DNA from: Gammaproteobacteria bacterium
GTDB taxonomy: Bacteria > Pseudomonadota > Gammaproteobacteria > Pseudomonadales > Cellvibrionaceae
Assembly (NCBI GenBank): GCA_022600975.1
Contig: JAHZJJ010000021.1
Span: 1 to 63,006 of the forward strand
Direction: 5' to 3'
Length of the DNA stretch: 63,006 nt
The translations under genes were made by a program, and so were the position numbers. Below the pieces are notes generated by a model. The model was given only the letters and a program-made list of their open reading frames with translations. It did not search any database and had not been told where the DNA came from. Numbering within the stretch: position 1 is the stretch's first letter; every line of letters begins with the position of its first letter. This document shows, one piece after another, positions 3,287-56,336 of the stretch.

Positions 3287-3448
3287 CCTAGAAGCCGCAA
3301 TTGAAGCACGCGAGTCTGTACAAGTGCTTGATGCACTTGGCAGATTTTAAAAGTTCTCATCACCAATAAGGTGACCGCGAATTGTTAAAATTCGCCGTGC
3401 ATACCAATAACTGACACAGCTTTTGCGCGCTTAACTGCGGCTTCTAGG
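3287..3448. repeat. Dispersed palindromic repeat (MITE-like), copy A, 162 bp
   Basis: CCTAGAAGCCGCAATT ... AACTGCGGCTTCTAGG termini (15/16 inverted match); exact flanking direct repeat TTGAA (3282-3286 and 3449-3453); homologous copies elsewhere in window. Confidence 0.85.
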
Positions 3449-25412: not shown

Positions 25413-26177
25413 TTACAAGTCGAAACCAAAACCAAGGCTGCTGCCTACCTCGTTGTCTGCATAGGTGGCACCTACGCTAAAGCGAGCGCTGCTGCCTAGC
25501 GGGCGAGTGTACATAACGGCTCCGGCGGTCTCAGCTCCCAGGTGGCCAACACCCATAGACAGGCTGCCGACACAGTCGCGCCAGTTGTCGCAGCTGCTGT
25601 TGCCAGCGTTGGCAGCGGCGGCCATATTGGCCATAGCCATGGCGCCAATAGCATCTATTCGATCATCCACTCTATTGAATCTACGATTCATGTCTCCACG
25701 GAGATTGTTTACTCGGTTATCGAGGTTAGCAATATTTTTACTGTTGTTAGCAATGTTTTTACTGTTTTTAGTAATGCTTTTACTGTTTTTAGTAATGCTT
25801 TTACTGTTTTTAGCAATGAAAGACTTCGCAGGTGTAAACTCAAGGGCCTGATTTGCCTCTGTAAGCTCAAAGGCCTGATTTGATTCTGTAAGCTCAAGGG
25901 CCTGATTTGGTTCTGTAAGCTTAAAGGCCTGATTTGCTTCTGTAAGCTCAAGGGCCGCCTGATTTGATTCTGTAAGCTTAAGGGCCTGATTTGACTCTGT
26001 AAGCTTAGGGGCATTTAAGGTGGAGTCTTGTGCAAGTGGATCTCTAGCGAGGTCTGCCTGGGCGAAAGCTCCCAGCAATAAGCTGCTGCCCACCGCTAAG
26101 CTGCTGAGGGCTTTGAGGCCCATAGAAAGCGTGGACTTTTTTGATTTTTGCGTAGCATAAAATTTCTTAGACGGCAT
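25413..26177 (-). CDS. Short YadA-like trimeric autotransporter with two repeat classes
   Basis: Signal peptide, LTE(S/A/P)NQA 9-aa repeats, IxKNSKS/N heptads, YadA-like anchor ending EVGSSLGFGFDL; anchor resembles product of 1..513. Confidence 0.8.
   Translation of the reverse strand: MPSKKFYATQKSKKSTLSMGLKALSSLAVGSSLLLGAFAQADLARDPLAQDSTLNAPKLTESNQALKLTESNQAALELTEANQAFKLTEPNQALELTESNQAFELTEANQALEFTPAKSFIAKNSKSITKNSKSITKNSKNIANNSKNIANLDNRVNNLRGDMNRRFNRVDDRIDAIGAMAMANMAAAANAGNSSCDNWRDCVGSLSMGVGHLGAETAGAVMYTRPLGSSARFSVGATYADNEVGSSLGFGFDL
25741..25824 (-). repeat. 21-bp tandem repeats encoding heptad stalk (ITKNSKS)
   Basis: ctgtttttagtaatgctttta at 25762 and 25783 identical; flanking degenerate units at 25741 and 25804. 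Confidence 0.9.
25846..26010 (-). repeat. 27-bp tandem repeats (6 units, one expanded to 30 bp) encoding LTESNQALK-type repeats
   Basis: gcctgatttg-starts at 25846, 25873, 25900, 25927, 25957, 25984. Confidence 0.9.
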
Positions 26178-28607: not shown

Positions 28608-28747
28608 CCTAAAAACCGCAGTTGAGCGCAGGAAGCTGTGTAAGTTATTGGTGTGCATGGCGAATTTTGAAAAGTTCTATTGGCAGTTTACAAAGTTCAG
28701 ATTTGATGTTGATCACTTGAAGTGGAAAAACCGCTGTGGCCTGTAGT
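28608..28747. repeat. Dispersed palindromic repeat copy B (one conserved end, degenerate other end)
   Basis: CCTAAAAACCGCAGTTGAGCGCAGGAAGCTGTGTAAGTTATTGGTGTGCATGGCGAATTTTgAAAAGTTC matches the inverted end of copy A; distal end decayed. Confidence 0.7.
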
Positions 28748-42722: not shown

Positions 42723-42884
42723 CCTAAAAACCACAGTTGGATCAGGCAAGTTTGTGCAGGTTATTGATATACTTGATAAATTTTAATAGTTTTCATCATT
42801 GATAAGTTGATTAAGAACTGTAAAAATTCGCCATACACACCAATAACTTAAACAGCTTTTGCGCGCCCAAATAAAACTTCTAGG
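42723..42884. repeat. Dispersed palindromic repeat copy C, 162 bp, same orientation and length as copy A
   Basis: Shares AAAATTCGCCrTrCAyACCAATAACTkAmACAGCTTTTGCGCGC...CTTCTAGG with copy A. Confidence 0.8.
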
Positions 42885-48600: not shown

Positions 48601-49224
48601 ATGAAACGGACAAAACATATTGATCTGACGATACTGCGTAAAAACACTCCTGTCCGGTTTTTTTCCGCACCTCTTGCCCTGGCAGTAGCGACGGCTATTG
48701 CTGGATGCCAGCCGCAAAAAGAGTATCAATTGGTTCAAAACACAAGCTCTTGTGTTGAAAATACAGAGCTGACTTTGGAGCAATGTGAAGCGGCTTATCA
48801 AAATGCCTTAAAAGAAGCTGAACGCACGGCTCCAAAATACGCTAGCAGGTACAATTGTGAAACGGAATTTGATAACTGCCAGCAGTCGAGCAGCGGCGTT
48901 TGGCTGCCACTTATGGCCGGTTTTATGGTCGCTAGGGCACTGGATAATGTCGGAGATAATGCCAGTGCAAGGAGGTATGGTCGCGCACAGTACTATAACC
49001 CGGTATTTCATTACTCCGGCAATAGGCGTGGGCTTAGAGATAAACTTATGTTGGCCGACGGTAGTGTGATTGGCATGCCGGGTAAGGGAAATTACAAACT
49101 AAACCCGAGGGTAACAAAGCCGAGACCAACGGTAACTAGAACAGTTTCCCGTGGTGGTTTTGGCTCTACGGCATCGGCCAAATCAAACTGGGGTGGTTCG
49201 CGCTCTGGCGGTTGGGGTGGGTAA
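48601..49224 (+). CDS. yjfM: YjfM-like DUF1190 lipoprotein
   Basis: Lipobox AIAGC; Cys-rich LTLEQCEAAYQNALKEAERTAPKYASRYNCETEFDNCQ; SxRGGFG tail. Confidence 0.8.
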   Translation: MKRTKHIDLTILRKNTPVRFFSAPLALAVATAIAGCQPQKEYQLVQNTSSCVENTELTLEQCEAAYQNALKEAERTAPKYASRYNCETEFDNCQQSSSGVWLPLMAGFMVARALDNVGDNASARRYGRAQYYNPVFHYSGNRRGLRDKLMLADGSVIGMPGKGNYKLNPRVTKPRPTVTRTVSRGGFGSTASAKSNWGGSRSGGWGG

Positions 49225-49238
49225 CCTGGAAAGATGTT

Positions 49239-50408
49239 ATGATTCGAGTACCTATTGAGGAGCGTTTAAATTGGCAGTCAAAAGCTCATGAGTTTGGTTT
49301 TAATTACCATACCATGTACGGTGAGAAATATTGGGATGAATCTGCCTATTATCAATTTTCACTAGAACAGATTGAGCGCGATCTTGAAGCCCCAACGGAA
49401 GAAATTCACCAAATGTGCCTTGAGGTGGTGGCAACGGTTGTAGCTGATGAAGTGTTGATGCGCAAATTCTGCATTCCTGAGCAACATTGGGATTTTGTTA
49501 AACGCTCCTGGGACAATGGCGATCCAAGTTTGTACTCGCGCCTTGATTTTGCTTACTCGGGGCAAGGCCAGGCAAAGCTTTATGAAAATAATGCCGACAC
49601 CCCTACAAGCCTCTATGAAACTGGTTTTTGGCAATGGTTATGGCTTGAAGATACTGTCGACAGCGGCAAAGTGGTAAAACGAGCAGATCAATTTAACTCA
49701 CTTCAAGAGAAGCTGATTAACCGCTTTAAGGATTTACAATTTTTAACCCCAGGCCGACAGTTGCACTTTGCCAGCTGCAAAGATACAGCAGAAGATCGAG
49801 GGACTGTTCAGTATTTACAAGACTGTGCAACTGCTGCAGCTGTTCCACAAAAATTTGTCTATATAGAAGATATTGGAGTTGATGGTTGTGGGAGATTTAC
49901 TGATCTGGATGACCATGTGATTACCTGGCTGTTCAAACTTTATCCTTGGGAAATGTTATTTCGAGAACAATATGCAAAGTTTCTTGCCGCTAGTAATGTC
50001 CGTTATTTGGAGCCCCCTTGGAAATCCATTCTTTCTAATAAAGCTCTACTGCCTTTACTGTGGCAAATGTTTCCGGGTCATCCCAATCTGCTTCCAGCCT
50101 ACTTTGAAACCGAGCTAGCACTTGCCAAGGAGCAAACGGAACTAATAAAAAAGCCGATCTTTTCCCGTGAGGGCGCTAATATCTCTATATTACGCCACGG
50201 TCAACCAGTTGAAGGAGGTTCATCCGGCCCTTACGGCGAAGAAGGCTACATTTATCAGGCTATGCATCGCTTACCTAAATTTGGTCCCCATTACACCCTT
50301 GTCGGCTCCTGGCTAGTCGACAACGAAGCTGCGGGAATCTCTATTCGCGAAGACAGCAGCCCTATCACTCAGGATATGAGCCGATATTTACCCCATATCA
50401 TTTTATAA
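49239..50408 (+). CDS. yjfC: YjfC-like glutathionylspermidine-synthase-family ATP-grasp ligase
   Basis: AHEFGFNYHTMYGEKYWDESAYYQFSLEQIE; YENNADTPTSLYE; KPIFSREGANISI. Confidence 0.88.
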   Translation: MIRVPIEERLNWQSKAHEFGFNYHTMYGEKYWDESAYYQFSLEQIERDLEAPTEEIHQMCLEVVATVVADEVLMRKFCIPEQHWDFVKRSWDNGDPSLYSRLDFAYSGQGQAKLYENNADTPTSLYETGFWQWLWLEDTVDSGKVVKRADQFNSLQEKLINRFKDLQFLTPGRQLHFASCKDTAEDRGTVQYLQDCATAAAVPQKFVYIEDIGVDGCGRFTDLDDHVITWLFKLYPWEMLFREQYAKFLAASNVRYLEPPWKSILSNKALLPLLWQMFPGHPNLLPAYFETELALAKEQTELIKKPIFSREGANISILRHGQPVEGGSSGPYGEEGYIYQAMHRLPKFGPHYTLVGSWLVDNEAAGISIREDSSPITQDMSRYLPHIIL

Positions 50409-50547
50409 CTGCATCGACTCAATGTTTTGAGAAATTGTGAAGGGTAATTATGAGTAAGCTTTAGGCGCCCAAGTCACCTCTTGACTACCTTCATCTCGTT
50501 TGCAACTGGATGTAAATAGCTACAATATACGAATATTGGCCTATAAT

Positions 50548-50698
50548 CCTAGAAGCCGCAGTTGGGCGTGTGAAAGCTGTGTAAAATGATGATTTTTATA
50601 AATTTTTGGTCACCTTATTGGTGGTGAGAATTTTTTAAGATTTGTCTGATGTATCAAGAACTTGTGCAGGCTTGCGTGACGCAACTGTGGTTTCTAGG
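50548..50698. repeat. Dispersed palindromic repeat copy D, 151 bp, inverted relative to A
   Basis: CCTAGAAGCCGCAGTTG...CAACTGTGGTTTCTAGG; exact flanking direct repeat ATAAT (50543-50547 and 50699-50703). Confidence 0.85.
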
Positions 50699-50791
50699 AT
50701 AATCCATTGAAATGCTAGAAGGCCAGTATAAATGGGCTCTACTGCTAGAAGGATCGGCAATCAACGAGCGTTTTAACGGAGCATAGCTTCC

Positions 50792-51268
50792 ATGACGATA
50801 AGGAAAGCAATCGCCCTCATCTCCAGTCATATTGTGGTTGGCATCGCAGGCTTTGCGCTTGGTATCTACACATTACCCATAATAACTGCGCCTGAAGCTC
50901 CTTCTACCTCACAAATTGCTAAGATGGCTGATACAACGAAATACCGGGGGGTATTTAGAAAAAACCTTAAAGATAGTGATACCTTTCACTGGGGAGAGGG
51001 ACAGGTTTTTGTTAGCAATGACGCCATTGCTCTGGAAGGAAAATTGGCACCAGGGCCAGATTACAAGTTATACCTTGCCAAAGAGTTTGTTGAGACCGAA
51101 GAAAAGTTCAAAAAACTTAAACCTACTATGGTGCTAGTTGGCGATGTAAAAACTTTCAATAATTTTATCGTTCCTGTGCCCAGAAATATTAACGTTGCTG
51201 ATTACAATACAGTAATTATTTGGTGTGAGAGATTCAGCGAGTTTATTACCTCAGCAGAGTATCAATAA
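50792..51268 (+). CDS. DM13-domain protein, membrane anchored
   Basis: KLAPGPDYKLYLAKEFV...YNTVIIWCERFSEFITSAEYQ. Confidence 0.82.
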   Translation: MTIRKAIALISSHIVVGIAGFALGIYTLPIITAPEAPSTSQIAKMADTTKYRGVFRKNLKDSDTFHWGEGQVFVSNDAIALEGKLAPGPDYKLYLAKEFVETEEKFKKLKPTMVLVGDVKTFNNFIVPVPRNINVADYNTVIIWCERFSEFITSAEYQ

Positions 51269-56211: not shown

Positions 56212-56270
56212 CCTAGAAACCACAGTCTGGCACGCAAAAGCTGTGTAGCTTATTAGTGTACCCGACCCAT
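56212..56270. repeat. Dispersed palindromic repeat copy E: solo end only
   Basis: CCTAGAAACCACAGTCTGGCACGCAAAAGCTGTGTAGCTTATTAGTGTACCCG matches conserved end of other copies; bracketed by TTAACTCTA at 56202 and 56271. Confidence 0.7.
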
Positions 56271-56336
56271 TTAACTCTACATAAACATACCCAAAGGTAT
56301 GCTTCAAGCATCATTTTAGCCTTCACGACTCAAAGG

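Follow-up and report, generated by a model that had tools for sequence, protein, structure and literature searches.

A decaying MITE copy upstream of a DM13-domain gene belongs to a family whose one-strand hairpin probably matters to the element itself

In the 63,006-nucleotide stretch of DNA analysed here (the window), a 151-bp repeat lies 93 bp upstream of a gene for a DM13-domain protein, and the locus raises the question of whether this repeat serves its neighbour or belongs to a mobile family with a biology of its own. The repeat, hereafter copy D, occupies positions 50548-50698, with the plus strand as its hairpin-keeping strand. Its terminal inverted repeats, CCTAGAAGCCGCAGTTG on the left (50548-50564, plus strand) and CCTAGAAACCACAGTTG on the right (50682-50698, minus strand), agree at 15 of 17 positions, and the target-site duplication ATAAT is found in exact form on either side (50543-50547 and 50699-50703). 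The downstream ORF (50792-51268, plus strand, 158 aa), a neighbour outside the element that begins with an ATG at 50792 and lies on the hairpin strand of copy D, carries the DM13 domain PF10517 (65.5 bits against a cut-off of 25), confirming the gene assignment made in the preliminary description, in which the coordinates, length, 15/17 ends, ATAAT pair, orientation and 93-bp spacing were likewise exact. The upstream neighbour is a glutathionylspermidine synthase-like ORF (49212-50408, plus strand), co-directional with the DM13 gene. Copy D runs opposite to copy A (3287-3448; 162 bp, TTGAA duplication, hairpin on the minus strand), and alignment with 163-bp relatives (alignment A1, columns 47-58) revealed a feature that had been missed, namely that copy D derives from the 163-bp element by loss of 12 nt, with the deletion junction in its 5' arm at 50593-50594 on the plus strand. 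The apical stem-loop of copy D, GGTCACC-TTATT-GGTGGT (50608-50625, plus strand), corresponds to the family motif TCACC-N4-6-GGTGA. The window also holds a diverged 162-bp copy at 42723-42884, with five mismatches in the right end and no exact duplication, and a plus-strand copy fragment at 56212-56272, in which the left end and about 45 bp match and the remainder is unrecognisable. A lone or degenerate family end (CCTAAAAACCGCAGTT) stands at 28608-28623 with no clear partner end, and two adjoining short tandem-repeat arrays with 21-bp and 27-bp units (25705-26012) overlap a minus-strand ORF (25413-26177).

Within its own 2.8-Mb, 81%-complete draft genome (G000), copy D gave 42 BLAST matches, and a search with the family end pattern, allowing up to two mismatches, returned 63 + 60 = 123 matches as compared with 2 + 3 = 5 for the reversed control; from these end matches, the draft contains about 60 copies. 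The most frequent size class is that of 163 bp, with others near 67, 96 and 122-126 bp, and the terminal inverted repeats measure 16-17 bp. In the 22 local 163-mers every one of the six frames is closed, by which a coding insert was rejected, and the family is a short, non-coding, multicopy MITE, with terminal inverted repeats, a 5-bp target-site duplication and an orthologous empty site that was found for a copy other than D. Copy D is a resident, decaying copy of this non-autonomous "passenger" MITE. As a separate observation, one antisense frame is open from end to end in several or many foreign 163-mers (e.g. L079, L080 and L122), and an open frame is likewise found in many 234-mers; a 163-bp element together with its duplication amounts to 168 bp, a multiple of three. 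Six loci with elements of the 163- and 234-bp classes gave no match to 4227 Rfam models up to an E value of 1, and a plasmid search with the family consensus gave no match.

Among 49 163-like copies from G000 and elsewhere, the 5-bp duplications are exact in 27 and have at most one mismatch in 41, and 26 of the 27 exact duplications fit the target WTNAW, a pattern that covers 2.5% of window positions. Since this target preference leads unrelated flank pairs of the family to have an identical 5-mer 7% of the time, the exact ATAAT of copy D is, on its own, modest evidence. Comparison of orthologous sequences demonstrated insertion for another copy (L004 1500-1662 / L352, on contig C76 of G000), a 163-bp element that parts two genes of a branched-chain dehydrogenase operon, E1-beta and E2. 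In genus relatives with a readable junction, these genes share 4 or 1 bp or meet at TGA, a clean empty site, and in G000 E1-beta has its stop codon within the end repeat of the element, which is flanked by an imperfect duplication (ATCAT/AGCAT). The WTNAW target, the many insertions and this empty site strongly support the earlier proposal of separate transpositions into AT-rich 5-mers. Because the DM13 gene is absent from the genus relatives examined, with two order-level matches that lack synteny, the same comparison is impossible for copy D.

The end sequence of the family is found widely among beta- and gammaproteobacteria, where it bounds elements of 110-390 bp that have 5-bp duplications, and the transposase-bearing elements with the same ends, which come from other Proteobacteria, are IS1380-like (PF13701): L130 (1625 bp), L297 (1703 bp, both ends matching the end pattern perfectly), L294 (1687 bp, duplication ATGAT) and L323 (1630 bp, duplication TTAAA, on a Polaromonas plasmid). 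Since their transposases pass the PF13701 cut-off and, where scored, fall below that of the NCBIfam IS1380 model NF033539 (170.5, 121.6 and 155.5 bits against 180), we class them as a divergent group. The IS1380 family, e.g. ISEcp1, has in common with the MITE its 5-bp duplications and the occurrence of PF13701 transposases in elements with the same ends, and ISEcp1 ends start with CCTA, as the family ends do here, but copy D has no transposase and the related transposases are below the NCBIfam cut-off. End variant CCTAGAAAAATCAGTT is common to the IS L294 and the MITE L345 (two genomes of one family), and end variant ACGGCAGTT is found in the Polaromonas IS and at one end of a 234-bp MITE of the same plasmid. 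On this plasmid, from Polaromonas sp. P1-6 (L323 1340-3560), the IS1380-like element lies about 360 bp from the 234-bp MITE with the matching end variant. The 81%-complete G000 draft yielded no IS1380-like transposase of this group, and the genus holds degenerate remnants only; we therefore infer the partner transposase from other lineages. The only PF13701 transposase found in G000 (L078, C91:8223-9554) belongs to an IS with ends CCTGAATCCGTAGCTTCAA, unlike those of the MITE, and this IS was rejected as the mobiliser since its ends differ (CCTGAATCCGTAGCTT).

A subterminal motif is also found in both kinds of element. The centre of the palindrome CACC-N4-6-GGTG lies 81-84 bp from one end in the 163-bp elements and in most of the motif-bearing 234-bp elements (the motif is present in 27 of 45), as compared with 1.8% of shuffled sequences with the motif at that distance, and in the IS1380-like elements it lies at position 75-87, counted from the end closer to the transposase, at the start codon or close to it, in a slightly loosened form in L130.

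Homologues of the 163-bp element with about 60-89% identity, nearly all of them 162-164 bp long, occur in several gammaproteobacterial families. Alignment A1 comprises 23 sequences of this class, oriented by homology and not by energy, and RNAalifold predicted for it a single full-length hairpin of 63 pairs, 35 with compensatory changes, at -73.7 kcal/mol as compared with -29.8 on the opposite strand. In this alignment 94.1% of cells are paired, and 158 cells show double changes, against 49.5 in shuffle controls, which keep the relatedness between sequences in place and leave the tree unmodelled, and at most 49 when the alignment is slid. Under a strand-neutral pairing rule, with equal treatment of G-T and A-C, G-U accounts for 238 cells and A-C for 42; at least five G-U are found in 14 columns, whereas one column has at least five A-C. 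The changes via G-U took the A-to-G as well as the C-to-T route, which speaks against cytosine deamination as the sole cause. The strand defined by homology was the lower-energy strand in 19 of 19 non-local and 29 of 30 local sequences and in 36 of 36 of the 234-bp sister class; the alignment of the latter folds at -109 as compared with -31 on the other strand, with double changes at 39 of 63 pairs and 293 double-change cells against 90 under the same kind of shuffle. These data suggest that a hairpin of one strand has been kept across genera by compensatory change, so that it probably matters to the element itself.

In contrast, 29 G000 paralogues are paired in 90.8% of cells both as observed and after shuffling, with 17 double-change cells against 15.5, in counts that used the fold of the consensus sequence (RNAalifold on the local copies alone gave a poor consensus) and have lower power because the local copies are younger. 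Single changes at pairs keep pairing in 191 cases and break it in 178, about equal numbers. The fold, strand-specific and conserved across genera but not among paralogues, appears to be under selection in the lineage that propagates and to decay freely after insertion. Our favoured reading, which we hold to be probable, is that copy D is one resident member of a MITE family whose ends would be recognised by a divergent IS1380-like DDE transposase, with a WTNAW target and a 5-bp duplication, and whose fold would be needed for propagation. An IS1380-like transposase (PF13701) would mobilise the MITE in trans, and the transcript of the element, or less likely one of its DNA strands, would have to fold for the element to propagate; the fold would therefore be selected in source elements and decay after insertion.

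The selected molecule could instead be a one-strand DNA hairpin, formed at a replication fork or during conjugation or transformation and used as the transposition substrate in place of any RNA. Such a hairpin would agree with the strand specificity, with the meeting of both ends at the stem base and with the fixed position of the subterminal palindrome, and one-strand DNA would tolerate G-T too; it is nevertheless unlikely, since transposases of the IS1380 type belong to the DDE enzymes, the family makes 5-bp duplications at its inverted ends in the way that double-strand transposition does, and G-T in DNA is weaker than G-U in RNA. Long imperfect palindromes are known sites of template switching and conversion, and a mutational process of this kind (template switching or arm-to-arm conversion) could keep the hairpin and yield double changes without selection. 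However, this process should erase G-T mismatches, whereas G-U is kept at specific columns (columns 21-143, G-U in 22 of 23) and is strongly strand-asymmetric, and it should also act on the G000 paralogues, where the excess is absent; we regard it as already disfavoured and quite unlikely.

At copy D itself, the plus strand, which is both the hairpin strand and the DM13 sense strand, has a predicted fold of -53.6 kcal/mol (z -5.5), as compared with -30.4 (z -3.9) for the minus strand. Copy D had been proposed to supply a promoter or a structured leader. The coincidence of the stable-fold strand with the DM13 sense strand leaves the leader possible, and copy D may sit in the DM13 leader if transcription begins upstream. 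The promoter was not supported: the scan at copy D gave four sites against 1.1 by shuffle, all of them weak 9/12 matches, of which GTGACG-16-GATAAT spans the right end of copy D and the ATAAT duplication; another weak site is upstream at 50499. Gene orientation around the 49 copies shows no bias (13 co-directional pairs on the same strand and 10 on the opposite strand), and copies at convergent sites outnumber those at divergent sites (16 and 8). An orientation preference read from the local upstream-gene excess (21 on the same strand and 7 on the other) was rejected, as the excess reflects mostly convergent pairs, which are uninformative on orientation. Recruitment of copy D as a promoter or regulatory leader of DM13, with position and fold kept for this role, would account for its place on the DM13 strand 93 bp upstream, for the weak sites at its right end and at 50499, and for its stable fold, but we consider it very unlikely: the -10-like hexamer comes largely from the ATAAT duplication and is no family feature, the counts of promoter-like sites barely exceed the shuffles, 12 nt of one arm are gone, the 49 copies are without orientation bias, and the paralogues drift, losing pairing as expected without selection. 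In our preferred reading of a passenger element, the effect at copy D would be passive, in that upstream transcription reaching DM13 would place a partly broken hairpin in the leader and no promoter would be supplied. Mobilisation of the MITE by an IS1634-family element, to which an IS1634 copy between two perfect family ends with a TTTAA duplication (L148 1957-3649) might point, is extremely improbable and is refuted for that locus, since the ends proper to IS1634 relatives (CCCGACTTCGACAGTT) differ from the MITE ends and are also present inside L148, which makes the IS1634 an insertion within a larger MITE. This locus, from a Sterolibacterium MAG, is a MITE of this superfamily in which the nested IS1634 mimics an autonomous element, complete with perfect ends and duplication.

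Several known elements resemble the family in part. ERIC/IRU elements are also small (127 bp as compared with 163 bp here), intergenic and of high copy number, and a long stem-loop closed by both ends is predicted for their transcript (PMC2229807, PMC10969869); however, ERIC has TA-type termini and a 7-bp inverted repeat (PMC2229807), whereas the elements described here have CCTAGAA...TTCTAGG ends, a 16-17 bp inverted repeat, a 5-bp WTNAW duplication and IS1380-like relatives, and are therefore not ERIC. No report of strand-asymmetric covariation for ERIC/IRU was found in the literature searched. The Correia/NEMIS elements of Neisseria are MITEs with a transcript stem-loop cleavable by RNase III (PMC2229807, PMC10969869), but they differ in having TA at the termini, a 24-bp repeat and another host range. 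QMITE2 of Coxiella burnetii is a MITE whose transcript is predicted to fold along its full length into a very stable stem-loop, often within a 3' UTR and with links to small RNAs (PMC10969869); with duplications of 7-9 bp and ends of 23-29 bp, it appears unrelated, judging by its described anatomy. A limited search of the literature gave no description of the present family or of MITEs tied to the IS1380-like group.

MITEs with stable transcript stem-loops, some of which act through RNase III or RNase E, are already known (PMC10969869, PMC2229807), and such hairpins have usually been treated genome by genome and explained through effects on neighbouring genes. The comparison made here separates two levels, a fold that is conserved between lineages, compensatory and strand-asymmetric, and the copies of one genome, which drift. 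We suggest tentatively, as a possibility, that a family of DNA transposon derivatives in beta- and gammaproteobacteria, comprising at least the 163- and 234-bp classes, may depend for its spread on a strand-specific structured RNA made from the element, and that the conserved TCACC-N-GGTGA stem-loop would be a contact which it has in common with the IS1380-like transposase gene. Separating the two levels makes testable the idea that an RNA would serve the element's own spread, and the comparison also points to a probable transposase group and to a motif of fixed position.
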